64,000 bases of DNA from Bdellovibrio bacteriovorus (lineage in GTDB: Bacteria; Bdellovibrionota; Bdellovibrionia; Bdellovibrionales; Bdellovibrionaceae). The DNA lies in NCBI RefSeq assembly GCF_001592735.1, contig NZ_LUKE01000001.1, positions 558,001-622,000 on the forward strand, written 5' to 3'. Below are positions 48,067-63,738 of this stretch, in pieces. The position numbers were made by a program, and so were the translations under genes. Under the pieces are notes generated by a model that ran no database searches, was not told the DNA's origin, and saw nothing but the letters and a program-made list of their open reading frames with translations. Numbering within the stretch: position 1 is the first letter of the stretch; the number at the start of each line of letters is the position of its first letter.

Positions 48067-49848
48067 ATGTCGAAATCCACCACGCTTGGGTCCTCCATCT
48101 TAAGTATGCCGGACCGGGACCCGAATCATATTGCCATTAAATTCAAAGTCCGCGACGAATGGAAAGAAAAAAAATGGCAGGACTACTATCACGATATTGA
48201 AACCGTTGCCGCAGGTTTGCTGGCATTGGGCATTAAACCTGGCGACCGCATCGCCATTATGGCCAACACTCGTTATGAATGGTCCGTCAGCGATTTAGCT
48301 ATTTTCGGGATCAAGGCCGTCACTGTAGCCGTCTATCAAAATAACACCGCAGAAGATGTGGAATACATTCTTAACAACAGCGGCGCGCGCATCTTGATAT
48401 CTGAAACTCGCGGTCCTTTGAAAATATTTGAAGCCGTTCGTAAAGAATGCCCTTTGATTGAAAAATTGATTGTTTTTGATGAGACCTGCCCAAACCCCGA
48501 AGCCATCACTTGGAATCAATTGCAAAAAATTGGCGCGGAATATTTAAAAGCTCATCCCACTCAGTTCCGCGAGCTGTGTTCTTCTATCACCCCGGATGAC
48601 TTTGCGACTTTGCTTTACACTTCAGGAACCACGGGCCGCCCTAAGGGTGTGGTGATGACTCATCGCCAAGCTTACAGTGAAGTTTCTGAGGCTTTTCCTT
48701 ATGCGGGGGCGAACCCTAAAGATACTTCTTTAAGCTTTCTTCCCTATGCCCATATCCTGGGTCGCATTGAACATTGGGGACATTTATACATCGGCTTTAC
48801 CATGGCCTATGCCGAAAGCATTGAAAAAGTGCGCGGCAATTTAGCGGACGTACGCCCGACGATCATGGTGGCCGTGCCACGAATTTTTGAAAAAATCTAT
48901 GCTGCTATTTTAGCGCAGATCCAGACCCAACCTTTAAAACAAAAACTTTTTAGTTGGGCCTTAGACATCGGCCGCAAAGTGGGCGAACACAAAATGAGCG
49001 GCCAAGCTTTGCCTTTAGATTTACTTTTACAATATGAAATCGCGCGCAAACTGGTCTTAAGAAAAATCACAGACGCCTTCGGTGGCCGTTTGCGTTTTGC
49101 TATCAGTGGTGGCGCCCCGATCCCGAAGGAAATTGCCATCTTTTTTCACTCTGCCGGGATTCTGATTTTAGAAGGTTACGGACTGACAGAGACCACCGCG
49201 GCCATCACCGTGAATGTGCCTTATAACTATCGCTTTGGCAGCGTGGGCCGCCCTATCGGCGATGTGCAACTTAAAATCGCCGACGACGGCGAAATCCTTG
49301 TGAAAAGCGACAAGGTCATGAAGGAGTACTATAAAAATCCTGAAGCGACTAAGGAAGTTTTTACCGACGGATGGTTTCACACCGGAGATATTGGTGAAAT
49401 CTTACCAAGTGGAGATTTAAAGATCACTGATCGTAAAAAAGATCTGATTAAGACTGCCGGCGGGAAATACGTAGCTCCGCAGCGTTTAGAGGGTTTGCTA
49501 AAACTTTCGCCTTACGTATCGCATGTCCACGTTCACGGAGATCAAAAAAAGTACATCGTGGCCTTGATCACCTTAGATCGTCCTTCGGTGGCGAATTTGG
49601 CGAAAGAGCGTGGCGTGCCTTATGAGGACTGGAATAATCTAGTCGCCTCAAGCTTTGTGCAAGATCTTATTCGCAAAGTCGTGGCCGACACCAATTCCCA
49701 GTTGGCAAGTTTTGAAAGCATTAAAAAATATCTGGTCTTGCCCCACGAATTTACCGTTGAAAGTGGAGAGTTAACTCCGTCTTTAAAGGTCAAACGCAAA
49801 GTCTTGGATCAAAAATTCAAGGCGCAAATTGACGAGCTTTATCAATGA
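48067..49848 (+). CDS. Long-chain acyl-CoA synthetase (AMP-forming)
   Basis: 593 residues. YTSGTTGRPKG at 184-194 is the AMP-binding P-loop; EGYGLTETTAAITVN and HTGDIGEILPSGDLKITDRKKDLIKTAGGKYVAPQ are the later adenylation motifs. Overall layout is the long-chain fatty-acid CoA ligase (FadD/FAA) type. It would activate free fatty acids to acyl-CoA through acyl-AMP. AGGAG precedes the ATG. The final ATGA overlaps the formyltransferase-like start. Confidence 0.93.
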   Translation: MSKSTTLGSSILSMPDRDPNHIAIKFKVRDEWKEKKWQDYYHDIETVAAGLLALGIKPGDRIAIMANTRYEWSVSDLAIFGIKAVTVAVYQNNTAEDVEYILNNSGARILISETRGPLKIFEAVRKECPLIEKLIVFDETCPNPEAITWNQLQKIGAEYLKAHPTQFRELCSSITPDDFATLLYTSGTTGRPKGVVMTHRQAYSEVSEAFPYAGANPKDTSLSFLPYAHILGRIEHWGHLYIGFTMAYAESIEKVRGNLADVRPTIMVAVPRIFEKIYAAILAQIQTQPLKQKLFSWALDIGRKVGEHKMSGQALPLDLLLQYEIARKLVLRKITDAFGGRLRFAISGGAPIPKEIAIFFHSAGILILEGYGLTETTAAITVNVPYNYRFGSVGRPIGDVQLKIADDGEILVKSDKVMKEYYKNPEATKEVFTDGWFHTGDIGEILPSGDLKITDRKKDLIKTAGGKYVAPQRLEGLLKLSPYVSHVHVHGDQKKYIVALITLDRPSVANLAKERGVPYEDWNNLVASSFVQDLIRKVVADTNSQLASFESIKKYLVLPHEFTVESGELTPSLKVKRKVLDQKFKAQIDELYQ

Positions 49849-50585
49849 GAACTTGGGTCGTCACCTCCGCCGTGACATTTGTACCCGATAACTATGAGGA
49901 TCTGATACTTCCCCTAGCCCACGATCCTCACATCGAAGGACTGCTGATTTTAGACAATCGCAGTCCTGATATCATTTTAAAGGCCGTACTTTTAATTGTC
50001 TCTTTGGCCGGCCCACGCATGGGTTGGCAGCTTTTAAAAAATTATTTTCGCAGTTCAAGCTTACGAAAAAAAAAATATTATGAACAGGCCCAGAAAAAGG
50101 TCCTTATTTTTAAAGACATCAATTCGACCGAATGCCTTGAAGCGCTTCGCACCATCCAACCTGATTTAATATTGAATGCGCGAACTCGGTCCTTTTTTCG
50201 TAAAGACATTTTGGCCCTCCCGCGTCTGGGATGCATTAATATCCACCATGGACTTTTACCCGATCAACGAGGTTTGATGTGCGATCTGTGGGCTCATCTT
50301 GAAAATACGCCCGCAGGATTCTCCATTCACGTCATGACCTCAAAATTAGATGACGGGGCCATTTTAAATACGACGGAAGTCCCATCTGACAAAAAAAATT
50401 ATTTAGCGTCGATTCAAGCAGCCGCCCGACTTGAGGCGCAGGCCGCTTCACAAGTACTTGCAAAAATAAATCATGCTGGAAAAATAGAAGGACAAAGCAA
50501 TCTTAAAACAGAAAAAACGGTTTATCGAAGAAACCCAGGTATTAAAGACTTCTATAAGCTTCGTTTAAGAGGTGTGAAAATATGA
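49845..50585 (+). CDS. Formyltransferase-like protein
   Basis: 246 residues. GCINIHHGLLPDQRGL is the formyl-transferase core motif (N, H and LLP) found in Fmt, PurN and ArnA-type enzymes, and KLDDGAIL carries the catalytic-type Asp. The rest diverges, and the C-terminal OB domain of Fmt is absent. It would use formyl-tetrahydrofolate to formylate an amine, if active. An N-terminal helix (residues about 43-62) is hydrophobic. ATGA overlaps on both sides place it firmly in the lipid operon. Confidence 0.83.
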   Translation: MRTWVVTSAVTFVPDNYEDLILPLAHDPHIEGLLILDNRSPDIILKAVLLIVSLAGPRMGWQLLKNYFRSSSLRKKKYYEQAQKKVLIFKDINSTECLEALRTIQPDLILNARTRSFFRKDILALPRLGCINIHHGLLPDQRGLMCDLWAHLENTPAGFSIHVMTSKLDDGAILNTTEVPSDKKNYLASIQAAARLEAQAASQVLAKINHAGKIEGQSNLKTEKTVYRRNPGIKDFYKLRLRGVKI

Positions 50586-52984
50586 AAACCATCTTGGCTC
50601 TTCATGGCAACCCCGGACATCCTGAAGATTGGAATCTGCTTAAAAAAATACTTCCTGCAGGTTATGAACTTGTAACGGTGGATCCCCACGACGACACTTG
50701 GACAAGTTTGCTGACAAAAACCTCTGATAAAAAAATTCTTCTGGGTCATTCTTGGGGCTGTTACCGCGTTTTAAAGGCTTTAAAGCCTTTTGCCTCTTCC
50801 ATTGAAAAAGCAATCTTGGTGGCCCCTTATGTTAAACCTGAAAAAAAGATTTCGGGTTTGGCGCAAGCACTTTTGCATCTGCCGGTCATAGGTGACGCTT
50901 TGCTAAAAGCCAACCACGCTAAAGCCAAAGATTCTTTTTTCGCGGATCTTATTCATCCTTTAAAGTCTCAAGATGATAGTTATCTAGAGATTGTCAACGG
51001 CCGTTTGCAAGAATGGCATTTGTGGAAAAAAACGGCTTTTCAAAAAATGGCCATGCAAGCAAATCCATGGAGCCCCGCGGATGTATCCGCTGTTCCGGTC
51101 ACCGTGATTTATGGGGCGAAAGATAAAGTCTCTGACCGTAAGGCCCAGGGTGATGTTTTTAAAGCTTATCCAAATAAAACGGAAGTTGAAATTCACGATG
51201 CGGGTCATGGCCTGATTTGGTCGCATGCTCGCGAAATCGTCAAAGCCTTGCAAGAGGAGTCTAAGACCATGAATCCTAAAATCGGTTACTTCCCGGGATC
51301 TGACGAAAGAAATAACGTCATTAGTTATATGGAAAAACACTTGCGTGAATTCCCTGATCGCATTGCTTTGACGTGGGCGCGTCGTGATTCTTTGCAAGCT
51401 TGGGATGGAAATCCCATGACTCCGATTGCGCATGATAAAATCACTTACAAAAATTTTGCCGAAAGAATTAATTCTTTTGCACGTGGACTTTTAGATATCG
51501 GTATTCAGAAAGGCGATCGCGTGATCATCTTTTTGCCGATGGCCCTAGATATGTACACGGCGATGTTTGCCGTTCAGCGTATTGGGGCTATTGCCGTGTT
51601 CCTAGATTCCTGGGCGCGCAGCCATCACTTAGGGGCTTCGGCCGAATGCGTGGGCCCTAAGGCCATGATCAGTTTTAAAATGGCTTTTGATTTGGTCGAT
51701 CAAGTTCCTGAATTTAAATCTATGCCGGTCCGTATTCTTTACGGACCAGGGGATAAGTTCACTCATAAATTTGAAGATCTGCTAAAAAAAGATCCTTCCC
51801 CCGTGGCGGCCGTGGAAAGTGAATTCACCGCTCTTATCACTTTTACGACGGGCTCAACCGGTAAGCCCAAGGGAGCCAACCGTACTCACCGCTTCTTATC
51901 TGCGCAACATCAAGCCCTTTCGCATGTCATTCCCTACACGGAACAAGATAAGGATATGCCGGCGTTCCCGATCTTTAGTTTAAATAACTTAGCGTCGGGT
52001 GTAACCACCGTGCTACCGGCTTTAGATTTATCAGCCCCTTCGGACAAAGACCCCGCGTTGCTGGCTTGCCAAATTATCAATGAAAATATCAACTGCACGA
52101 CATTATCACCCAGCATGCTGGTCGGGCTTTCGCGTTTCTGTAAAGAAAAGGGCCTTCAGCTTTCAAAACTGCGTCGCGTGGTGACCGGTGGCGCCCCCAT
52201 TTCTAAAGATGACGTTAAAGCGTTTTACGAGATCGCCCCGCAAAGTGATCTGTGGATTCTTTATGGCTCAACCGAAGCCGAACCCATGGCCCACATTGAA
52301 GGCCGGGACATGCTTAAAGAAAGCAAAGTCACTGATCCAGAAATCATCGAGGAAGGTGTGAACGTGGGTCATATCAGTGATGATATCGACTTTAAATTCA
52401 TCCGCATCAAGGATGGTCCGATTTCGTTATCCCAAACAGATTGGGATAAGATCGAGGTTGCCAATGGTGACGTGGGCGAGTTTATTTGCACGGGCGACCA
52501 CGTTTGTCGCGAATACTATAATAACCCCGAAGCCTTCAAGACGACGAAAATCATGGGCCATGACAACCGAGTGTGGCATCGTACCGGCGACCTTGCCTAT
52601 ATTGATTCTGATAAAAATCTATGGATCGTGGGCCGCGTGAACAATGCCATTGAGCGCGCCGGGAAATATTACTTCCCCGTTCGCGCCGAAGTCTTATTGA
52701 AACGCATGGACTTTACTTATCGCTGTGCTTTTTTAGGTATGGATGACGCAAAACTAGGCCAAGCAACTCACGCCGTGGTGGAATTAAAATCAGATATTGA
52801 TCCAAAATCTTTTGATTTCGTATCCGCCAAAAAAGAAATCCAACGCGTGTTTGAAAAGAATAAGATCCCCGTGGATCATATTCAATTCATAGAAAAAGTT
52901 CCTATGGACCCCCGTCATCACTCGAAAGTTGAATATAAAGTCCTGCGTGATCAATTAAAACAACCAGGAGTCGTTATTGGGTAA
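50582..52984 (+). CDS. Alpha/beta-hydrolase fused to OleC-like AMP-dependent ligase
   Basis: 800 residues. Residues 1-225: alpha/beta-hydrolase with GHSWG nucleophile Ser57, acid Asp181 or Asp185 and His209. Residues 230-800: adenylating enzyme, TFTTGSTGKPKGA (420-431), FPIFSLNNLASG, YGSTEAEPMAHIEGRD, and VWHRTGDLAYIDSDKNLWIVGR. These last segments resemble OleC beta-lactone synthetase more than fatty-acid ligases. OleB-OleC fusions exist, but OleB uses Asp, not Ser. An internal AGAGGAG at 51253-51259 precedes Met230, so the ligase may also be made alone. The gene overlaps both neighbours. Confidence 0.87.
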   Translation: MKTILALHGNPGHPEDWNLLKKILPAGYELVTVDPHDDTWTSLLTKTSDKKILLGHSWGCYRVLKALKPFASSIEKAILVAPYVKPEKKISGLAQALLHLPVIGDALLKANHAKAKDSFFADLIHPLKSQDDSYLEIVNGRLQEWHLWKKTAFQKMAMQANPWSPADVSAVPVTVIYGAKDKVSDRKAQGDVFKAYPNKTEVEIHDAGHGLIWSHAREIVKALQEESKTMNPKIGYFPGSDERNNVISYMEKHLREFPDRIALTWARRDSLQAWDGNPMTPIAHDKITYKNFAERINSFARGLLDIGIQKGDRVIIFLPMALDMYTAMFAVQRIGAIAVFLDSWARSHHLGASAECVGPKAMISFKMAFDLVDQVPEFKSMPVRILYGPGDKFTHKFEDLLKKDPSPVAAVESEFTALITFTTGSTGKPKGANRTHRFLSAQHQALSHVIPYTEQDKDMPAFPIFSLNNLASGVTTVLPALDLSAPSDKDPALLACQIINENINCTTLSPSMLVGLSRFCKEKGLQLSKLRRVVTGGAPISKDDVKAFYEIAPQSDLWILYGSTEAEPMAHIEGRDMLKESKVTDPEIIEEGVNVGHISDDIDFKFIRIKDGPISLSQTDWDKIEVANGDVGEFICTGDHVCREYYNNPEAFKTTKIMGHDNRVWHRTGDLAYIDSDKNLWIVGRVNNAIERAGKYYFPVRAEVLLKRMDFTYRCAFLGMDDAKLGQATHAVVELKSDIDPKSFDFVSAKKEIQRVFEKNKIPVDHIQFIEKVPMDPRHHSKVEYKVLRDQLKQPGVVIG

Positions 52985-53846
52985 TTGGTGGATCCTCGTT
53001 AAAGAACGATTCAGTCCCGCATCCTATATTCCGATGATCGCCGTCTTTACGGCGGTCAACGGGTTGTATTTATCTAAGCAAGCTGAAATGGAATGGAATT
53101 GGACTCAGTTCTTTTTGACCTTTATTTTGCTGCTGTCCTTTTTCTTTCGCATGCGTTTGTTTGACGAGATCAAAGACTATGAGGTGGATTTAAAAATCAA
53201 TCCCACCCGTCCCTTAGCTCGGGGAATTCTTTCGGTGATCCAAGTCAAAAAAGCATTGCTGCTTTTGATTATTTTCGAGTTGATACTTGCGGCCTTTGTC
53301 GGTGGGTGGAATAGCTTTATCGTTCACGGTTTAGCTATTGGTTACAGCCTGCTTATGTATGAAGAGTTTTTTATCGGCGATTTTTTACGCCCGCATTTAA
53401 CGACCTATGCGGTGACGCATACATTTTCTAGTTTTTTGCTTGCGATCTCTGCCGGTGTCGCGATGACGGGTATTTCAATCACTGATTTTCATGCTGACAT
53501 CTATATTTTCTTTTTAATGAACTGGGCTTTTTTCAATCTTTTTGAATTTGCCCGAAAGACTTTTGCCGTATCAGAAGAACGTCCTGGTGTTCTGAGTTAT
53601 TCCAATATCTTTGGCCGCACGGGGGCTTGGTTATTATCGACGAGCCAGGCAGCAATCGGGATTATTTTAGTTTCTTCAGCAAAGATAGAGCCCTTGGTGA
53701 TCGCCGCCTTCGTGCTATACCTTGCGGCCAGCTCCTTGTACCTTATCCAAGGCAACGCCAAAGCTGCCAAAATCTTTAGAAATAGTTCTGCGGCTTACTT
53801 GCTAGTTCATTATATAATTGTGATTTACGTGTTGGGAGCATCTTAA
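52977..53846 (+). CDS. UbiA-type membrane prenyltransferase
   Basis: 289 residues, about eight membrane helices. RLFDEIKDYEVDLKINPTRPLARG holds the first Asp-rich motif (Asp63, Asp67, Asp71) that binds the prenyl diphosphate through Mg. The second motif, EFARKTFAVSEERPGVLSYSN, lacks the usual DxxxD, so the acceptor may be unusual. The start is TTG, with AGGAG 6 bases upstream, overlapping the ligase gene by 8 bases. It would attach a polyprenyl or related chain to an acceptor in the membrane. Confidence 0.87.
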   Translation: MGNWWILVKERFSPASYIPMIAVFTAVNGLYLSKQAEMEWNWTQFFLTFILLLSFFFRMRLFDEIKDYEVDLKINPTRPLARGILSVIQVKKALLLLIIFELILAAFVGGWNSFIVHGLAIGYSLLMYEEFFIGDFLRPHLTTYAVTHTFSSFLLAISAGVAMTGISITDFHADIYIFFLMNWAFFNLFEFARKTFAVSEERPGVLSYSNIFGRTGAWLLSTSQAAIGIILVSSAKIEPLVIAAFVLYLAASSLYLIQGNAKAAKIFRNSSAAYLLVHYIIVIYVLGAS

Positions 53847-56524
53847 TGTTAGTTACACCGCACTCCACCCTATTCTTTGCCAAAAATGAAGCCGGTGGTA
53901 AAGGCTATAACCTTTACCTGATGTCGCAGGCGGGCCTCCCTATCCCGGAGTGGGTGGTCTTTGGTAAAAGATATTTTCATCTGTTCATGCAAAGTGCAGG
54001 CGTGCAAGCAAGCCTGAATAATATTTTAGAAAGCTTACAAGCAGGAAAAATCACTGCCGCTCAATGCGAAAAAGAAATTCACCAGCTCTTTGAATCAACC
54101 CCACTGCCACCTCAAGTAGAAGCAAGCTTAAACGAAGCCTTAAATCATCTTGGGCCACAGAATGTATTTTCAGTGCGCTCCTCAGCGGCGGATGAGGACA
54201 GCTTGTCCCATTCTTTTGCCGGTCAGCTTTCAAGTTTCTTATATGTGCAAGGGGCCGCAGATATTTTAAAATACATCCGACTGTGCTGGGCCTCTGCTTT
54301 TTCAGAGCGCAGCTTGGTCTATCGTTTAGAAAATAAAATTGATCTAAAAAAGATTTCCGTTTCGGTGGTTTTACAAAGAATGATTGATCCGGATAAATCT
54401 GGCGTTCTTTTTACTTGCGACCCAGTCGCAAAAAAGACAGATAGCTTTGTCGCCTCTGCCGTTTACGGAGTGGGTGAAGGCTTAGTCTCGGGTGCTTTAG
54501 ATGCAGACTCTTTCTGGATTGATGCAAAAACCGGCGGTCTTTTAAGACAAGAGGTTGTGGAAAAAACGGAAATGATGAGGCGAGCCAACTCAGGTCACTG
54601 CGAACTGCAAAAAGTCGCGGCAGATTTGATCAATGTCCCTGCGCTGAATAGCTCTGAGTTGCACGGCCTCTACAAGCTTGGTCAAAAGCTGAATGAACAA
54701 TATCATCGTCCGCAAGATATCGAATGGGCCATTGAAAATGGTAAGATTTATCTTTTGCAAACTCGTCCGGTCACAAACCTTGATCAAGATCTGATCGGAT
54801 ACCCGAATCTTTGGGACAATTCGAATATCATTGAATCTTACGGTGGGTTGACGTCGCCTTTAAGTTTTAGCTTCGCCCTTAGAAATTATAAAGCCGTCTA
54901 TGTGCAATTTTGTGAAGTCTTAGGTGTGCCTAATGAAATCATCAAAGACATGGATTCTTACTTAGGAAACATGCTGGGCAGTTTGAATGGTCGGGTTTAT
55001 TACAACCTTTTTAATTGGTACAAGCTTGTCGGCGTTCTGCCGGGCTTTAAACAAAACCGAGAATTCATGGAAACCATGATGGGTGTTTCTGAAGCCTTAA
55101 GTGATGAAATCGCCAATCGTATTAAACCGCATCCGTCCTGGGACACGCCGGCGGGTCGCATTCGTAAAATCATCACTGGATTTAATTTTATTAAATACCA
55201 TTTTACCATTCAGTCTGTGGTGGATGATTTCTTAAAAACTTTCCACCGCGACTATGATCGTTTCCGCGCCATGCCCTTAAAACGCTTACGCGGAGATCAG
55301 CTGGTGCAAGTTTACCAAGATATGGAAAGAAATATGTTGGGTCGGTGGAAAGCGCCCATCATTAATGACTTTCTATGCATGGTTCACTTTGGACTTTTAC
55401 GTAAGCTGACTTTGAAATGGCTTTCGCAATTAGATCCAACAATACAAAATGATCTTTTAGCCGGTGAAGGCGGACTTGAAAGTGCGGAGCCTACAAAAGC
55501 GTTATTGCGTCTGGCCAACAAGGCTGCACAATATCCGGAACTGCATCGTTTGATTGAAGACGTCGATCCCAAAGATGGGTTGGAAGCCATCAATCAATCG
55601 CAATACCAAGAGTTTTACAAATCAGTCTTAGATTACCTAGATCGTTTCGGCTTCCGCTGTATGAGCGAAATGAAGCTTGAAGAGATAGATCTGTTAACGG
55701 ACCCAAGCTATCTTTTTGTTTGCTTAAAGAATTATCTTAAAGCCGGACAAACTGAAATCCATGATGATTCCCACGAAAAATCTTTGCGCAAACAGGCCGA
55801 AGAAAAAGTGGCTGGTCATTTAACCGGAATAAAGAAAAAGATCTATTTCTGGGTCTTAAAACATGCTCGCAAAGCTGTTAAAAACCGCGAGAACACCCGC
55901 TTTGCGCGCACACGTATTTACGGTATTGCGCGTACAATCTTCCAAACCATGGGTGAAGATTTAGCTTCACAACAAGCCATCGAACATCCGCGCGATATCT
56001 TTTGGCTGACCATCGAAGAAGTTTTTGGTGTCTATAATGGCACCTTGCCTTCGTACAATATGAAAGCACTGGTGACTTTACGTAAATCTGAATACGCAAA
56101 CTTCACCGAAGAAACTGACCCCCGCATTATGACTCGCGGAGCTGTCTACTGGAACAATGCTTTCATTAAAGAAGTCGAAGCCCCAGCAGCGGACGCCAAT
56201 GGAGAATGGGATTTAAAAGGTCTGCCCTGCTGCCCAGGTATTTTAGAAGGTACGGTGAAGGTCATCATGAATCCAAGTGATAACTTAGAGCTGAATGGAG
56301 AGATTCTGGTAACGGCCAGAACCGATCCAGGATGGGTGCCCTTGTACCCCGCGATTTCAGGTTTGTTAGTTGAGCGCGGCAGTTTATTATCCCATTCAGC
56401 CATCGTGGCGCGTGAAATGGGAATTCCGGCTGTTGTCAGCATCCCGGGCCTGACTAAGACACTAAAGAGCGGAATGAAGGTCCGCATCGATGGTAAAGCC
56501 GGCACAATCAAGATTATCGGTTAA
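53846..56524 (+). CDS. PEP-synthase-like phosphotransferase
   Basis: 892 residues. The N-terminal ATP-grasp (PPDK_N) domain, about 10-320, has KNEAGGKGYNL, SVRSSAADED and QDIEWAIENGKIYLLQTRPVT. A long middle domain follows, then the mobile phospho-His domain: GSLLSHSAIVAREMGIPAVVSIPG with His850. The PEP/pyruvate barrel of true PEP synthase is missing, as in rifampin-phosphotransferase-like enzymes, so the substrate is another small molecule or lipid head group. GGGAG and a TAATG overlap precede it. It converges on the BtaA-like gene with a 4-base overlap. Confidence 0.87.
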   Translation: MLVTPHSTLFFAKNEAGGKGYNLYLMSQAGLPIPEWVVFGKRYFHLFMQSAGVQASLNNILESLQAGKITAAQCEKEIHQLFESTPLPPQVEASLNEALNHLGPQNVFSVRSSAADEDSLSHSFAGQLSSFLYVQGAADILKYIRLCWASAFSERSLVYRLENKIDLKKISVSVVLQRMIDPDKSGVLFTCDPVAKKTDSFVASAVYGVGEGLVSGALDADSFWIDAKTGGLLRQEVVEKTEMMRRANSGHCELQKVAADLINVPALNSSELHGLYKLGQKLNEQYHRPQDIEWAIENGKIYLLQTRPVTNLDQDLIGYPNLWDNSNIIESYGGLTSPLSFSFALRNYKAVYVQFCEVLGVPNEIIKDMDSYLGNMLGSLNGRVYYNLFNWYKLVGVLPGFKQNREFMETMMGVSEALSDEIANRIKPHPSWDTPAGRIRKIITGFNFIKYHFTIQSVVDDFLKTFHRDYDRFRAMPLKRLRGDQLVQVYQDMERNMLGRWKAPIINDFLCMVHFGLLRKLTLKWLSQLDPTIQNDLLAGEGGLESAEPTKALLRLANKAAQYPELHRLIEDVDPKDGLEAINQSQYQEFYKSVLDYLDRFGFRCMSEMKLEEIDLLTDPSYLFVCLKNYLKAGQTEIHDDSHEKSLRKQAEEKVAGHLTGIKKKIYFWVLKHARKAVKNRENTRFARTRIYGIARTIFQTMGEDLASQQAIEHPRDIFWLTIEEVFGVYNGTLPSYNMKALVTLRKSEYANFTEETDPRIMTRGAVYWNNAFIKEVEAPAADANGEWDLKGLPCCPGILEGTVKVIMNPSDNLELNGEILVTARTDPGWVPLYPAISGLLVERGSLLSHSAIVAREMGIPAVVSIPGLTKTLKSGMKVRIDGKAGTIKIIG

Positions 56525-57618
56525 TTTTTCTTAAAAATATGGAACTGGTAAACCCCAGTTCCATCTAAGTTCTGCGCCCACATATTTTTATCTACTAGTT
56601 CTTGCCATGATTTTAGATCCATGGCCGTGGGTGCGCGCATAAAAGAGCGGATCACCATCTGACTGCCTGACTTGGTATCAGGATGCAGTCTTTGTAAAAT
56701 CTGATTGGCCTCTTGCTGAGGCAGATAAGAAATCGTGTCTGACAAAGAGATAAAATCATAGGCATGCTTTGGCAGCTCCTCTAAAAGGTTGCCATGCAAG
56801 TACCGAATTTCGGTTTTTGATTTTTTGACCGCTTCTACGACATCTTCATGGGCTTCTAATGGCAGGCCCTCTTCGTAAGCGATTTTTCCTAAAAACAAAA
56901 TCTGCATAAAATAATTTTTACGCACCAATTGAGTTTTAAAGATACGCTCAAACTCTTCCATAATAAATTGCGAGGGTGGGCGCTGTTCCGTGCGATGATC
57001 GGATTTACCGCTGAAATGTCCTTTATAAAGAAATTTATTAAAGACATATTCACTGGCAACAACTCGGATAAAGCTGTTCCAGCGAAGTTTCGGCCAATAT
57101 TTTTCATAAGCCTCGGCTTGTTCGGCCAAGCTTTGTGTTTCAAAGATTTTCGTAAAATCACACTTTAAATAATCCCTAAATAAAACACCGATCTTTTGAA
57201 AGTGCGATTCCCACCGACCTAAAAGAATAAAACCTTTCGGCTTCCATCCCTTCACACGTTCGTTCCAATAAGCCGTTGCTTCGGGCGAAAGTTTTAAGCG
57301 ACGATACAAGGCCTCGCGATCATCCCCTTCGTTGGGACCCCCTTGCAAAGCCCCGCGGTAACCCATTAAAAATAGATATTCCCCGTAGGAAAGATTCTTC
57401 ATCGCCTGCAAACGCAGTTCACACAAATAAAGCTGACTGACGGACATATCAATCACATCTAGGTTTTTCGGTTTTTTTGCCAAAAGCGGTAAACAGCGCG
57501 CCCCCGAACCAGCGATACTAAAAACCCGATCCACATTGGCAGGCAAAAGCTCCCACTCCACACGCGTGTCTTCGTTGGCCAATGTGTAGTTCAGATCCGA
57601 AAAATATTCTTTTGCCAT
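56521..57618 (-). CDS. BtaA-like (DUF3419) aminocarboxypropyl transferase
   Basis: 365 residues. YTLANEDTRVEWELL, FSIAGSGARCLPLLAKKP and VIDMSVSQLYLCELRLQAM match DUF3419/BtaA. BtaA moves the 3-amino-3-carboxypropyl group of S-adenosylmethionine to diacylglycerol, the first step of betaine lipids. The methyltransferase BtaB that makes the betaine is not adjacent, so the product may be the unmethylated homoserine lipid or something else. GGAG precedes the ATG. It ends the minus-strand lipid operon. Confidence 0.85.
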   Translation of the reverse strand: MAKEYFSDLNYTLANEDTRVEWELLPANVDRVFSIAGSGARCLPLLAKKPKNLDVIDMSVSQLYLCELRLQAMKNLSYGEYLFLMGYRGALQGGPNEGDDREALYRRLKLSPEATAYWNERVKGWKPKGFILLGRWESHFQKIGVLFRDYLKCDFTKIFETQSLAEQAEAYEKYWPKLRWNSFIRVVASEYVFNKFLYKGHFSGKSDHRTEQRPPSQFIMEEFERIFKTQLVRKNYFMQILFLGKIAYEEGLPLEAHEDVVEAVKKSKTEIRYLHGNLLEELPKHAYDFISLSDTISYLPQQEANQILQRLHPDTKSGSQMVIRSFMRAPTAMDLKSWQELVDKNMWAQNLDGTGVYQFHIFKKN

Positions 57619-57644: not shown

Positions 57645-58712
57645 TTAAAATGCCAAATTTCCGGTCAGTTCAACGCGAGCCCCAAAAGCCCAGCCACCGG
57701 TGATTTCTTCAAAAACTTGATAAAGGCCCTGCTGACCTTCATAGTTCTGCACAAACCCTAAAACCGTCATATAATCAGTCACGTTGTATCCATAGCTGAC
57801 ATTGGCAAAGACATCTTTTGCCGTATCGTTACGGTAAAACTGCATTTGCAGATCATGGCGGTTGGGATTCCACTGTGTACTTAAATAATAACTAACTTGA
57901 TTTTCGGTTGTTAACGTTGCGGTGCTTGCTTCAAAAACACTGACCTGAGGAAGCAAAACCCAGTTTCCTAAAAAAAGATCGCACCCTAAGGTCGAAAACC
58001 AATGATCCTTTTTTAAAGGTGCACTGACGGCGGTGTCAGTGACCGAACCGACTTCAAATTTAGGCACGGCCTTTTCAAAGGCATAGTTCGCCGAGACCCC
58101 ATAATAGTTCTTTTTTAAAACCTGCGCGGTGATCGCCGACAATCCAAAGCCTGCGACATCGGCTTTCACCCGCCCGCCGAAGCTCGTATTTTTTTCTAAA
58201 TTTTCTTTAGGCACCGGAATAGGATAATAATTCGGAGCCACATCCCCGATACCGACAAACTCTAAAGAAAACGTATCAATCGCATAAGACGCCGAAATCC
58301 CCGTGGGATGAGTCAGCTGATCCACCAAAGGATCAAAATACAATCGATTGTAACGTCGTCCTGTCCACACATCTAAAGACGGCAACGTCCAGGATTCACT
58401 CCAGCGAATGGCCTGACGTCCCACGCGTAAATAAAATGAATCCACTTTAAATTCTAAATACGCTTCTTGAAGGTAGGCTTGAGATTCGGAGCGACGAATG
58501 TACTTTTGATCTTCGTTCCCTTCAAGCTCGCCAAAGCCCTCAAGATACAAACCAAACGGGCCCAGATTATAATTTAATTTTGATTTTAAAATAAGTCGGT
58601 GGGCCAACTCTTCTTCGGGCCCGCGGATATAATCATAGCGAGCGGCCCCGGTCAGATCCGCTTGTGCAGCCAAGCTGCTTGCTAAAATAAATGCCGCCAA
58701 CCAAAACCGCAC
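57645..58712 (-). CDS. Putative outer-membrane barrel, DUF1302-like
   Basis: 355 residues. The signal ends AQA before DLTG. Many alternating strands (FYLRVGRQAIRWSESW, SFGGRVKADVAGFGLSAITAQV) and a final Phe in LTGNLAF indicate a barrel. VGRQAIRWSES resembles DUF1302-type proteins, which often pair with LolA-like carriers. The start is GTG, sharing a base with the LolA-like stop. Confidence 0.8.
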   Translation of the reverse strand: MRFWLAAFILASSLAAQADLTGAARYDYIRGPEEELAHRLILKSKLNYNLGPFGLYLEGFGELEGNEDQKYIRRSESQAYLQEAYLEFKVDSFYLRVGRQAIRWSESWTLPSLDVWTGRRYNRLYFDPLVDQLTHPTGISASYAIDTFSLEFVGIGDVAPNYYPIPVPKENLEKNTSFGGRVKADVAGFGLSAITAQVLKKNYYGVSANYAFEKAVPKFEVGSVTDTAVSAPLKKDHWFSTLGCDLFLGNWVLLPQVSVFEASTATLTTENQVSYYLSTQWNPNRHDLQMQFYRNDTAKDVFANVSYGYNVTDYMTVLGFVQNYEGQQGLYQVFEEITGGWAFGARVELTGNLAF

Positions 58713-59407
58713 TACTTCATGCTTTCCATATTACGCACGGTAAAGAAAGAACTTGGATAGTCCTTTTTTCCCATTTTCAAAATACGGATATGACTGACTT
58801 GTTTATTGGTGTCTTCGATTCGTAATGTCGTCGGACGAACCGCGCCAGCGATATTTTTATAGTCTTCAAAGAAAGCGCGTTTTAAAACTGTTTTACCATT
58901 AAGTCCCAAATATTCCGCGCGGATCGGCTGAAAGTTTCCCTTTTTAAGCCACAAATTAATGGCCGCATAAGTTAAATTGTCCTTAGTACCTTTTAAGAAA
59001 AGCTGAACTTCATCTTGAGTTTCACCAATTTTAGTCGCCTCATAGTCACCATACCAGCGCGTGCGCGAAATATCGCCGTTGGCCACTTGGCCAGAGAGTT
59101 TTTGCGCTAAAGACAAACGCATGGATCTTTTTAAATTCGGAACATAGGCATTAAAATCGCGATCCAGCATCAACATATTGCGACCCTTGTCGCGAGCGGG
59201 CTCTTTGGTAACAATCAAAGTTTTATCTTGCCCTTGCAAATAAACTTGAAACACCGAAGTGTTTTCACTGGTTTCAACCTTGATCTGCATTTCAAAAGAA
59301 TCTGCTGGATTACGAATATCATCGGCCTTTTTCACCCATTCATTGGGGTTGGCAGAAGCCGCGGCATTTGTAAGTATAATCAAAGTTGCAAAAATCAATG
59401 CCTTCAT
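58712..59407 (-). CDS. LolA-like periplasmic carrier
   Basis: 231 residues. A signal peptide ends ASA before NPNE. The beta-sheet layout (MQIKVETSENTSVFQVYLQG, DRDFNAYVPNLKRSMRL, WYGDYEATKIGE) matches outer-membrane lipoprotein-sorting proteins of the LolA-fold, PF17131-like group. These carry lipophilic molecules across the periplasm and are usually next to RND exporters; no RND gene is present. AGGAG precedes the ATG. It lies between the AAR-like and barrel genes. Confidence 0.86.
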   Translation of the reverse strand: MKALIFATLIILTNAAASANPNEWVKKADDIRNPADSFEMQIKVETSENTSVFQVYLQGQDKTLIVTKEPARDKGRNMLMLDRDFNAYVPNLKRSMRLSLAQKLSGQVANGDISRTRWYGDYEATKIGETQDEVQLFLKGTKDNLTYAAINLWLKKGNFQPIRAEYLGLNGKTVLKRAFFEDYKNIAGAVRPTTLRIEDTNKQVSHIRILKMGKKDYPSSFFTVRNMESMK

Positions 59408-59419
59408 GACATCTCCTGT

Positions 59420-61549
59420 TTATTTTTTTCTTTTCGAAAGGGCCAACTGTCGAGTCAGTTCGATTTCTCGATCCGTGATAATACCCATATGACCTTGGAT
59501 CGCGGCTAATTCCACGCCATGCCTGCGAGCCATTTTATAGATCTGCTTCACCTTGTCCCACTCGATATCACGTCCCATGGTAAAGGGCTCATAACGTTTT
59601 TCCATTGTTAACAAGGCCGTTTCCGCTAAGCAAGCATAGACTGTCTTACCCGGAAGCCCTAAGTCACACGTCAACTCCACCGGCCCTGGCAAAACCACCT
59701 CACCCGATTCAATAATTAAAACATCCGGGCGTTTTTTCGCATCGTCTTTATCAAAATCCAAAGGTCGTGAGCAATCACAGACCACCGCCCCTGGTTTTAA
59801 GCGCATCACATCAATAATTTTATGATCAAAGGCCGAAGTGGCCGTCACAACCGCGTCAGCCTCACCCGCAAGCTCATTGGCGTCGGTGGAAACGATGACT
59901 TTGCAGTTCGGCGAAATTTTTTCGATTTCAGCGCGAAGTTCTAACAAACGATTCATTCTTGGCGCCACCAAGGTCAGTCTATTAAAGACCATCGACAAAA
60001 GCTTGGCCGAAACTTGGCCGATAGAGCCCGTGGCCCCGACCACCATCGCCATGCCGTCGACCAATCCTGATTCCGGAGAAATCTTAAGCAGGTTCATTTT
60101 AATAACAACATCACGCAACGCCCACAAGGTCGCGGCGGCACTTAAGCTGTTTCCGGTCGTTACCGGAATCGGACTGTTCTGATTGATGGTGATACCTTGA
60201 TCGCCCACGATTTTGGTATAAGCGCCAAGGCCAATCATTTTAGCTCCGCGATTCGCGGCATCGTAACAAAGGCCTTGGATCTTTTGATAAATTTCTTCCG
60301 GATCAGATTCTTTTAAAACTTTGGGCGTCGCTGGCAAAGTATAAATAATGCCGTTGATTTCCTGTCCCGTTTCTTTGCTCATGATATGCTTCACATGCCC
60401 CCAAACAAAAGCCGGAGCATTGGACGCCACGCGATCAAACCTATTATTCCATTCTTTCGGCATGTGCTTGAGCAGCGAAAGACCTGGCACTCGTAAAAAG
60501 TCGTCATGTGAAAGTGCATGCACGACGAAAGCAAAATCCGGTTCTTTTTGATTTAAGATTTTATTCTTAAGCGTGTTAACACTTTTAGAAATCTTGGCTT
60601 GGGTCGACGCCTGGCGACTCATCACATATTTGCGAGCCACATGGCGGATATCCACATCCTGCGCTAAAACCTGTTCCCACTCTTCAATACTTAACGGAGC
60701 CGTCCGACCCCGAGCCAGACGCAGCGTCGCATCTAAGACCGAATAGTTCATGCAAGGATGAATACGGTACTTTTCAGGGATTAAGTTTGTGATACTGCGC
60801 GGGGAAAACTTGCGGGCTTCTTCTTCCATCTTGGGATGGCAAGACCAAATAACTAAATCTTTACCGCGCACAAATTCCGTCGAGGAATCAAATAAAAGTA
60901 AAAATGGCAAATCACAAAAAACATACTGCACGTTTTCAACCTGAGCGGCCAAAGAAGAACGACTTAATTTTTGCAGCTTGGTTTCAGCTAAAGGTGTATT
61001 ACTGCGCAAGTCTTTAAGATTGGCGACATTCAGCGCGAGCTTTGAAAGAGTCTTTAAACCTTTAAAGGGCTGCAACAAAATGGGAATGCCCAAGAGTGAA
61101 TAGGCATCCCCGAAATAAATGGATTTCGGATAACGAGCGCGGATGTATTCTTCAAGCTCGGTGGAAAACATCGCCGCCGGAAAGAAAATACCCCGTTCGG
61201 GATCAATTTCCCCTGATTCCATTTTTTGAATCAAGGAGGTGATATTAGAAACCTCACGCAATCCTGTCCCGTCACACAATGGCACCGGCGAAGGAGTTCC
61301 CATAATATCTAAGTACTGGCGATGCACGTAACTTTTCTGATCTAAGCGAATCACCGGCGGCAAGCTTGTCAACGCAAAGGCATCCACTTGACTGCGCAAA
61401 GATTCGATCAGCTTTTGAAAAGCTTCAACGGAAAAATTTGTACCGAATCGCTGCACTTCAAAGTTTTTCCCCTCGAATTCAAATTCGTAAGCGGTATCCC
61501 AAGAAGGACGGCCGAAACTAATCTCAGCGATACGATACGAACTTTTCAT
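59420..61549 (-). CDS. Acyl-ACP-reductase-like dehydrogenase with extra N-terminal domain
   Basis: 709 residues. Residues about 345-700 resemble cyanobacterial long-chain acyl-ACP reductase. GLGAYTKIVGDQGITI, TTGNSLSAA, the Rossmann VVGATGSIGQ near 502-511, and YACLAETALLTMEKRYEPFTMGRD with Cys640 at the place of its acyl-accepting Cys are the matches. It would reduce acyl-ACP or acyl-CoA to an aldehyde with NADPH. Residues 1-340 are not in the cyanobacterial enzyme and I do not recognise them. GGAG precedes the ATG. It overlaps the SDR gene by 26 bases. Confidence 0.82.
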   Translation of the reverse strand: MKSSYRIAEISFGRPSWDTAYEFEFEGKNFEVQRFGTNFSVEAFQKLIESLRSQVDAFALTSLPPVIRLDQKSYVHRQYLDIMGTPSPVPLCDGTGLREVSNITSLIQKMESGEIDPERGIFFPAAMFSTELEEYIRARYPKSIYFGDAYSLLGIPILLQPFKGLKTLSKLALNVANLKDLRSNTPLAETKLQKLSRSSLAAQVENVQYVFCDLPFLLLFDSSTEFVRGKDLVIWSCHPKMEEEARKFSPRSITNLIPEKYRIHPCMNYSVLDATLRLARGRTAPLSIEEWEQVLAQDVDIRHVARKYVMSRQASTQAKISKSVNTLKNKILNQKEPDFAFVVHALSHDDFLRVPGLSLLKHMPKEWNNRFDRVASNAPAFVWGHVKHIMSKETGQEINGIIYTLPATPKVLKESDPEEIYQKIQGLCYDAANRGAKMIGLGAYTKIVGDQGITINQNSPIPVTTGNSLSAAATLWALRDVVIKMNLLKISPESGLVDGMAMVVGATGSIGQVSAKLLSMVFNRLTLVAPRMNRLLELRAEIEKISPNCKVIVSTDANELAGEADAVVTATSAFDHKIIDVMRLKPGAVVCDCSRPLDFDKDDAKKRPDVLIIESGEVVLPGPVELTCDLGLPGKTVYACLAETALLTMEKRYEPFTMGRDIEWDKVKQIYKMARRHGVELAAIQGHMGIITDREIELTRQLALSKRKK

Positions 61550-62543
61550 AACCGCTCCAGAAAGTGTTGGCGTAACTGCTAAATTCCGGACACCAGCGAT
61601 CCCCTAAGATCTCGCGGGTCGGAGTCGTATCGTATAAAGGAAAATGCAAAAGATAATGCAGCTGTTCTTCAGGAAACTTCGCCACTACTTTGGAAATTTT
61701 CAAAGTCAAAGCTTCTGGCAATTGATCCACCAGCAGAACCCCTTTGTTCGGGATCGCAAGTTTTTTCAAAGCTGACGAATAAAGTTCCGTGACCGAGGCG
61801 CCTTCGGTTGGAGTGATATGATAACTCCAGTATCCGCCGGGCTCTGTCGACAAGGTCCACTCACAGAATTTTACAATAGCGTCCGCCGCGACATCCACTG
61901 GCACAAAAGGCAAACGCGTTTTCTCACTGCCTGGTAGCGGAATCGGTGTCGGCATATGTTCAATCAACTGACGAATTTTTTTAAAGGCTTCTGCTGCATA
62001 GTAAGGGCCATCAATACGATCGATTTCACCCTTTTTAGTATCACCTACTAAAACACCTAAGCGCAGATTGATGCGCCCTTTTATATTCATCGAGGACCAA
62101 TTTTGTAAAACTTGTTCACCCCAGGCTTTAGATTCAGAATAAGCATCCGGAAAGGGCTTCGTGAAATTCAAGTCATAGGGCTTTACTAAATTCAATGAAG
62201 AGTTAATGGCCGCCGCCACCGTGCTAGTACTTAAAAAATACGGAATTTTTAAAAGATCCGCGACCTTTAAAGCCGTTCCCATAGCCGAAACATTTTGCAA
62301 AGTGCAATCCGCTTTCGGTTTCATCAAGTCATACAAACCTGACATATGTAACATCAAGGCATAATTCTTTTTAGAAAGTGCCGGTAAATTTAAACCTGCG
62401 TTCCACTGCGTAAGATCACCCTGGACTTCAGTCGTGCCCGATCGTGATAGCACATCGACTTCGAATTTTTCACGAAGTAAAGGAATGACTCTTTTTCCTA
62501 GAAAACCAGTCCCACCCGTGACCAGGATGCGCGGTCGATTCAC
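61524..62543 (-). CDS. Extended SDR, acyl-reductase/epimerase type
   Basis: 339 residues. ILVTGGTGFLGKRV is the NAD(P) site; YSESK has the Tyr-Lys pair. VLVGDTKKGEIDRIDGPYYAAEA is the motif of SDRs related to fatty acyl reductases. It might reduce the aldehyde or ketone made by the AAR-like protein. The start is GTG at 62543 with AGGAG upstream. It starts 11 bases after the DAG-kinase-like gene. Confidence 0.85.
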   Translation of the reverse strand: MNRPRILVTGGTGFLGKRVIPLLREKFEVDVLSRSGTTEVQGDLTQWNAGLNLPALSKKNYALMLHMSGLYDLMKPKADCTLQNVSAMGTALKVADLLKIPYFLSTSTVAAAINSSLNLVKPYDLNFTKPFPDAYSESKAWGEQVLQNWSSMNIKGRINLRLGVLVGDTKKGEIDRIDGPYYAAEAFKKIRQLIEHMPTPIPLPGSEKTRLPFVPVDVAADAIVKFCEWTLSTEPGGYWSYHITPTEGASVTELYSSALKKLAIPNKGVLLVDQLPEALTLKISKVVAKFPEEQLHYLLHFPLYDTTPTREILGDRWCPEFSSYANTFWSGYEKFVSYR

Positions 62544-62554
62544 TTTGAGAACTC

Positions 62555-63553
62555 CTAAGGACGAACCATCACAGGCAAACCGTGATGAATACAGCGGATT
62601 TTGATTTCTTGAACGTCCTTCAGAAGGATCTCGCCATCTCCAAAAAAAGTCAAAGTTCGCTCTGGATTCTGGCTCTTTAGACTGAATTCTTTCAACTCAA
62701 AAGATTTAAAAATAGGCGACTTTTCAGTAGTACCACGACGGATCTGTAAAGCCGCCATCGTGTGCTGTGGAATCGTTTTAGTTTCAGATAAAAGTAAATT
62801 AACGGTGCCATCACTATTCGAAGTAAATGGGGCCGGAAAGAAACCTTTGCCGATGGTTTTTTGATTATTAACCAATACGATCGGCGAGGACGTTTGAAAA
62901 CTGCGTTTACCAGGGATACTGACCTCAAGTCCCCAGCCTTCTGGGTTCCAAGTACGAATCGCCTCGGCACTCATCATGGAATAAACCGCGGGGCCCATTT
63001 TTTTAACGGCGTGATAACTTTTTTCGGCAATAAATTGAAATGCCTTACGCGTCGAAGGCGTGCTGGCCAGTGCTTGCAAGTGACCACGAAAACGATTTGC
63101 AAGCTCGGCCGCCTTCGCGGGCATACCTAAGCCACCGTTAGTGAGCATGTAAGCTTTTTCTTCCCCTGAAGAAATCTCGATCACATCGATTTTTTTCTCA
63201 ACACCTTCAAAGATATTGCGAACCGCATAATCCACTCGCGTGGAAACACCGATGGCGTGAGCGAGATCGTTGGCCGTGCCCGAGCGTACTAAGGCCAAAG
63301 GTGGAAGCACGTGAGTGTCTTTGTATTTCATCATCGATTGCAAAACCACGTTGATAGTGCCATCGCCGCCGCAAACGATCAGATAGTCCGTTTTTTGATT
63401 CAACTCTTCGTGAAGAAAGTCATCCATTTCGCCTAACGAAGTGGGTCGGCAAAAGCGTAAATCGCAGCGAAAAAGGGAGTCTCTCACCTTCGCCTCGATC
63501 AAGTCTGCGTTCACAGACCCGGCTTTAGAATTGATCAGTACCGACACTCTCAT
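62555..63553 (-). CDS. Diacylglycerol-kinase-like lipid kinase
   Basis: 332 residues. SVLINSKAGSVNAD begins the fold, and CGGDGTINVVLQSM (GGDGT 62-66) is the nucleotide site; RSGTANDLAHAIG follows. This is the DAGK catalytic/YegS family, which phosphorylates diacylglycerol or a related lipid. The ATG at 63553 follows GGAGAAAG; the frame runs further upstream without a site. It is first in the minus-strand operon. The 185-base gap upstream shows nothing else I can name. Confidence 0.92.
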   Translation of the reverse strand: MRVSVLINSKAGSVNADLIEAKVRDSLFRCDLRFCRPTSLGEMDDFLHEELNQKTDYLIVCGGDGTINVVLQSMMKYKDTHVLPPLALVRSGTANDLAHAIGVSTRVDYAVRNIFEGVEKKIDVIEISSGEEKAYMLTNGGLGMPAKAAELANRFRGHLQALASTPSTRKAFQFIAEKSYHAVKKMGPAVYSMMSAEAIRTWNPEGWGLEVSIPGKRSFQTSSPIVLVNNQKTIGKGFFPAPFTSNSDGTVNLLLSETKTIPQHTMAALQIRRGTTEKSPIFKSFELKEFSLKSQNPERTLTFFGDGEILLKDVQEIKIRCIHHGLPVMVRP

Positions 63554-63738
63554 TTGCTTTCTCCGTCTAAGTAAGAAGAGCAAGAGTTGTACCCAAAATT
63601 TAAAGCTTAGGGGGCTGGTAAAATAGATCTGTATCGAAGAATCAGGCCAAAACCGTCATTTTGGCACTGATGTCAATTATTTGGACGATATCCGAGAAAG
63701 CTTAGGTTTATCGACTCATATTTGGAAAAATGCCCCAT

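Follow-up and report, generated by a model that had tools for sequence, protein, structure and literature searches.

A hydrolase-ligase fusion gene of Bdellovibrio resembles OleBC but forms a separate sister branch, in a probably lipid-making locus

Described systems and the gene content of the locus

OleBC fusion proteins are known from oleABCD clusters, in Micrococcales and Granulosicoccus (PMC7064751), and the chemistry of OleC and OleB has been described (PMC7158056). In a 64,000-nucleotide stretch of DNA from Bdellovibrio bacteriovorus (hereafter the window), a gene at positions 50582-52984 of the forward strand likewise joins an N-terminal alpha/beta-hydrolase and a C-terminal ligase of the OleC superfamily in one chain. 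The resemblance to OleBC is one of architecture only: the window protein has a serine instead of an aspartate nucleophile, its ligase falls outside the OleC clade, OleA and OleD are missing, the locus is a different one, and parsimony yields separate fusion events within the clade of its own type (type A, see below) alone. Two other systems share parts of the locus. The prodigiosin ligases PigC and RedH and the reductase PigE are homologous to its phosphoenolpyruvate (PEP)-synthase-like protein and its acyl reductase, but the window locus has no recognised pyrrole-building genes and scores far under the PigC, RedH and PigE cut-offs. A plasmid cluster of Roseinatronobacter sp. S2 (L028) has UbiA, PEP-synthase-like and DUF3419 genes, and its ligase falls in the same clade, but the cluster belongs to an alphaproteobacterium and is type-B-like, encoding a GNAT-like protein and neither hydrolase nor formyltransferase; between its DUF3419 and GNAT-like genes (4932-6251) lies a gene for a 439-residue hydrophobic protein with no Pfam match.

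The fusion ORF runs from ATG to TAA over 800 codons, with Pfam matches to Abhydrolase_6 (residues 6-221) and AMP-binding (251-646), so that a Ser-hydrolase occupies residues 1-229 and an AMP-forming ligase residues 230-800. A Pfam and motif check confirmed the ORF, domains, motifs and coordinates given in an earlier note on this DNA, including the segments FPIFSLNNL, HIEGRD, VWHRTGDLAYID and, around Ser57, GHSWG. The full-length structural model is of moderate overall confidence (pTM 0.62). Judged by conservation, the fusion ORF is a real gene, because orthologues occur at 73-78% identity in the genus and in genome G035, and at 57-59% in genus g19. The fusion was found in 14 of 24 sampled genomes of the genus (in one as two contig pieces) and, within the same family, in G035, G062 and G064; a scan of the genome collection outside the phylum returned two close Bdellovibrio loci only. 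In G173 the hydrolase-ligase gene (L148, 5435-7922) is split into two overlapping frames inside the ligase, by a true frameshift or an assembly error. The locus comprises the following features, with the basis of each assignment in brackets:

48067..49848, forward: FadD11-like acyl ligase bordering the cassette on the left (HMM; 67-78% identity in genomes with a type-B cassette)
49845..50585, forward: formyltransferase-like protein (Formyl_trans_N) of type-A loci, overlapping the fusion gene as ATGA (Pfam, locus comparison)
50582..51268, forward: N-terminal alpha/beta-hydrolase domain, residues 1-229, with nucleophile Ser57, Asp181 and His209 (Pfam, triad invariance, AlphaFold2 model, fold matches)
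51253..51271, forward: AGAGGAG, 9-base spacer and ATG (Met230), candidate internal ribosome site and ligase-only start (sequence, enrichment, split relatives)
51269..52984, forward: C-terminal AMP-forming ligase domain, residues 230-800 (Pfam, HMM scores, motifs, trees)
52977..53846, forward: UbiA-superfamily membrane prenyltransferase, adjoining the fusion in sampled type-A loci (Pfam)
53846..56524, forward: PEP-synthase-like protein related to PigC/RedH ligases (HMM, phylum survey)
56521..57618, reverse: DUF3419 protein (BtaA family) bordering the cassette on the right (Pfam, identity comparison)
57645..58712, reverse: putative outer-membrane protein with no Pfam match, kept across the locus (Pfam, locus comparison)
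58712..59407, reverse: LolA-like protein, PF17131 (Pfam)
59420..61549, reverse: acyl-thioester reductase-like protein, similar to PigE reductase and acyl-ACP reductase (HMM)
61524..62543, reverse: SDR or male-sterility-type NAD-binding protein, not OleD (Pfam, HMM)
62555..63583, reverse: diacylglycerol-kinase-like protein, kept across the locus (reading of the sequence, not a family search)

This gene set recurs across Bdellovibrionota in our locus survey. The PEP-synthase-like protein scores 1308 bits with PRK06241.2-2 (cut-off 883) and would thus receive the NCBIfam name phosphoenolpyruvate synthase, yet the locus context and its similarity to PigC/RedH (379-391 bits) suggest a biosynthetic ligase or phosphotransferase. 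Its homologues on Streptomyces plasmids (L031, L032) adjoin AfsA-like and isoprenylcysteine-methyltransferase-like genes. In G108 (L095, 3367-5784), an HMG-CoA reductase-like sequence has a PEP-like protein on one side and, on the other, a type-I ligase with UbiA, which hints that UbiA there uses isoprenoids; a UbiA search against plasmids gave no match. An ABC ATPase and an FtsX/MacB permease adjoin the LolA-like gene in two loci (L067, L080). The open-access papers searched yielded nothing on DUF3419 together with UbiA, or on Bdellovibrio together with OleC.

An exchangeable block and the history of the fusion

Comparison of related loci revealed two types. The hydrolase is present in 36/36 type-A loci, GNAT in 0/36 and the formyltransferase in 35/36, the one exception (L016) stopping at a contig edge; type-B loci have GNAT (11/11), no formyltransferase (0/11), no hydrolase (0/11) and a different ligase, and since the HMMs behind these tallies drew in part on these very loci, the presence calls are partly circular and the absence calls are not. 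Both types occur in the genus of the window: two Bdellovibrio genomes (G005, G024) carry a B block in the slot between FadD and DUF3419, with flanking proteins 67-81% identical to those of the window and ligase, UbiA and PEP-like proteins at 23-25%, 28-33% and 41-42%, respectively. In G005 (L071), FadD, DUF3419 and the acyl reductase match the window at 67%, 68% and 75%, the ligase, UbiA and PEP-like proteins at 23%, 28% and 42%, and formyltransferase and hydrolase are absent; G024 (L070) is similar, though there the DUF3419 comparison spans 38% of the length and extra DNA lies between the block and DUF3419. A second exchange is seen in G159 (L142), which combines a type-A PEP-like protein with type-B ligase, UbiA and GNAT. 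On these comparisons, formyltransferase, hydrolase-ligase, UbiA and PEP-synthase-like protein are an exchangeable block inside a conserved locus.

Hydrolase and ligase are separate genes in eight sampled type-A loci, and the minimum number of state changes on the tree is three. Because B ligases are unfused, these read as two fusions (Bdellovibrio-type and family f12) and one re-splitting (G181/G182), with at least two fusions by parsimony. Such repeated fusion, together with the fission, suggests that the two activities belong together.

The junction itself carries a possible trace of this history. AGAGGAG at 51253-51259 ends 9 bases 5' of the ATG at 51269 (Met230), which to the earlier note suggested a ligase-only product. 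One such site is weak by itself, since 29 of the 396 internal in-frame ATGs in the ORFs of the window follow, at like spacing, a Shine-Dalgarno (SD) sequence of at least 5 nt. An SD with start codon occurs in the linker of 11/18 Bdellovibrio-type fusions, against 2.7 expected from synonymous-codon shuffling; among f12 fusions the count is 1/21. The enrichment is suggestive: the 18 include several close relatives, and the simulated P can therefore not be read as a real probability. Among the split loci, four (L081, L082, L087, L088) have an ATGA in which the stop of the hydrolase overlaps the start of the ligase, and a purine-rich SD lies within the 3' end of the hydrolase gene. Measured from the GY motif of the ligase, the window SD and ATG roughly coincide in position with the SD and ligase start of these split relatives, for which reason the predicted internal site looks like a former ligase start, in line with the earlier suggestion. 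A universal internal start was rejected: the site is not found in L004, L006-L008, L016, L075 and nearly all f12 fusions.

The ligase and hydrolase domains compared with OleC and OleB

Among all models, the ligase scores best with PRK09274 (NF006754), at 364.5 bits, under the cut-off of 478; a generic long-chain ligase model gives 200 bits and two OleC models 216 (OleC-Xan) and 209. By comparison, an OleC (L096) and two LstC-type proteins (L026, L029) reach 547-616 bits with PRK09274 and 451-536 with OleC-Xan. The NCBIfam OleC cut-off of 900 is missed by the window ligase, as it is by OleC genes of the phylum that adjoin oleA, oleB or oleD.

In a maximum-likelihood tree, type-A ligases form a clade with support of 100/100, and ligases of types A, B and I, all from UbiA/PEP-synthase-like loci, a clade with 97/91, to which OleC and LstC (100/99) are sister; FadD-type ligases stand separate (100/100). 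A quick tree agrees, with support of 93 for A+B+I and 98 for OleC/LstC; several rows are long-branched, which leaves details of B and I uncertain. The motifs follow the same division. The A10 motif DxRHxx(K/R) is common to A, B, I, OleC and LstC and is not found in FadD; the window ligase has the OleC form DxRHxxK (PMDPRHHSK782), RHHSK being invariant, and it retains Lys782 at a position where type-B ligases mostly have Arg. It also shares with OleC/LstC the WHRTGD segment and the PRK09274 superfamily. However, A, B and I ligases read YG[ST][ST]E[AV]EP where the OleC/LstC proteins compared read YG[AS]TExLP; the window ligase has YGSTEAEP (561-568), with E567 and P568 invariant in 25 aligned fusions. 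The hallmarks of ANL adenylate-forming enzymes are all in place: P-loop (421-431), GD670, GR685 and the A10 Lys.

Trees and motifs thus place the ligase closer to OleC than to FadD, as the earlier note had held, and the phylogeny that it proposed upholds the separation from FadD but not membership of OleC: on the sequences compared, the ligase clade is sister to, and distinct from, OleC/LstC. Two identities were rejected. An ordinary FadD- or NRPS-like ligase is set aside by the FadD split for the former and, for NRPS domains, by a comparison of HMM scores only; against identity with OleBC stand the tree, the motifs, the nucleophile, the genomic context and the oleABCD operons that co-occur with the locus.

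As to context, the best matches in the whole window genome are 33 bits over 85 residues for OleA and 40 bits over 112 residues for OleB, with no second match to the OleC model; neither oleA nor oleD was found in the locus, and the SDR at 61524-62543 scores 22 bits with the Shewanella OleD model (cut-off 580). The earlier remark that OleA and a clear OleD are absent nearby therefore holds, for OleA even genome-wide. Six sampled Bdellovibrionota genomes (G144, G147, G182, G186, G190, G200) have a complete oleABCD operon and, elsewhere, a type-A locus, from which we conclude on gene content that the fusion ligase is not the organism's OleC. As an identity, the 'OleBC-like' label of the earlier note is not supported, given the ligase's position, its 216 bits against 451-536, its non-Ole neighbours and these co-resident operons. 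Operons of the oleABCD or oleABC kind are common in Bdellovibrionota (L125-L133, L096): 118 of 369 phylum genomes have an OleC-model match at E < 1e-80, none up to the NCBIfam OleC-Xan cut-off, and annotation may miss them.

The hydrolase departs from OleB in its nucleophile. Ser57, Asp181 and His209 are invariant in 30/30 aligned hydrolases, fused and split; in OleBs of the phylum HDWG is invariant (10/10), and a profile alignment sets Ser57 opposite OleB D116, an Asp in 10/10. The haloalkane dehalogenase model gives no match for the hydrolase and 150 bits for OleB. The domain accordingly lacks the Asp nucleophile and haloalkane-dehalogenase likeness of OleB, and has the fold and Ser-Asp/Glu-His triad of Ser-type alpha/beta-hydrolases. 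Given this triad, the acyl-enzyme route put forward in the earlier note is to be expected. The AlphaFold2 model (pLDDT 95) matches esterase-like folds at Z about 21, and generic esterases, haloperoxidases, lactonases and D14/KAI2 match about equally, so that the fold is not diagnostic of substrate and indicates no specific function; the A2 profile gave weak, generic matches only against PDB sequences.

These data bear on the earlier reading of a diverged OleBC, in which the ligase forms a beta-lactone that the Ser-hydrolase opens. Domain order, the ligase's proximity to OleC rather than FadD and the common A10 motif are consistent with it, as are lactone-acting Ser hydrolases of the same fold (enol-lactonase, Z 21.3). 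We nonetheless regard it as improbable: the ligase lies outside OleC/LstC with TE[AV]EP in place of TExLP, OleA and OleD are missing while six sampled genomes have oleABCD besides, and making a lactone in order to hydrolyse it would be futile unless another acceptor opened it.

Proposed function of the locus

We consider there to be about an even chance that the locus, with its Ser-hydrolase-ligase fusion in an exchangeable block, makes and exports a lipid whose end group is set by the block. Reading from family names, the product would be an outer-membrane lipid or amino-lipid, its backbone built by the acyl reductase, SDR, lipid kinase and DUF3419 protein (by family a BtaA-type 3-amino-3-carboxypropyl transferase), and the LolA-like and ABC/FtsX genes suggest export. 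The block swap would then be an exchange of end-group blocks on a common backbone. In type A, the hydrolase would cleave an ester or thioester by way of a Ser acyl-enzyme and so release a carboxylate, which the ligase of the same chain would adenylate and pass on to an amine or hydroxyl acceptor, and the formyltransferase would cap an amino group; in type B, a GNAT acyltransferase would replace hydrolase and formyltransferase. The catalytic residues are complete in both domains by alignment. The fusion would hold both steps together, and a ligase-only product may still arise from the old start in some Bdellovibrio. The hydrolase might instead come after the ligase, or its target might be an N-formyl group.

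An intact P-loop, GD, GR and A10 Lys782 would also suit an acyl-CoA or acyl-carrier ligase, with the hydrolase, whose fold is near esterases and thioesterases, as a proofreading or type-II thioesterase. This we think unlikely, as the ligase has an OleC-type A10 loop where the compared FadD proteins have the SGK type, and casual rather than systematic inspection of the locus genes noticed no carrier protein. Wherever the contig of an A locus extends over both genes, the formyltransferase accompanies the hydrolase, and an N-formylmaleamate deformylase is among the Foldseek matches; the hydrolase might on this ground be a deformylase or deacylase paired with the adjoining formyltransferase, the ligase fusion fixing co-expression only. 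The chance of this seems to us slim, because the fold matches are generic and a formyl group added and removed in one locus is hard to rationalise, save as protection chemistry.

Beyond the proposed lipid locus itself, the finding may, though we advance this tentatively, represent an undescribed envelope-lipid pathway of predatory Bdellovibrionota, with a conserved backbone, swapped end-group blocks (N-formyl/hydrolase-ligase or GNAT-ligase) and a ligase clade that shifted from closing lactones to intermolecular coupling. New relative to the earlier note are the conserved locus, the exchange of cassettes and the versions in which hydrolase and ligase are split. The ligases form a branch beside the beta-lactone synthetases that is readily mis-annotated as OleC or acyl-CoA ligase, and their locus, conserved in predatory bacteria, uncharacterised and probably concerned with an envelope lipid, undergoes natural block exchange inside one genus, so that its product can be tested through comparison of close relatives.
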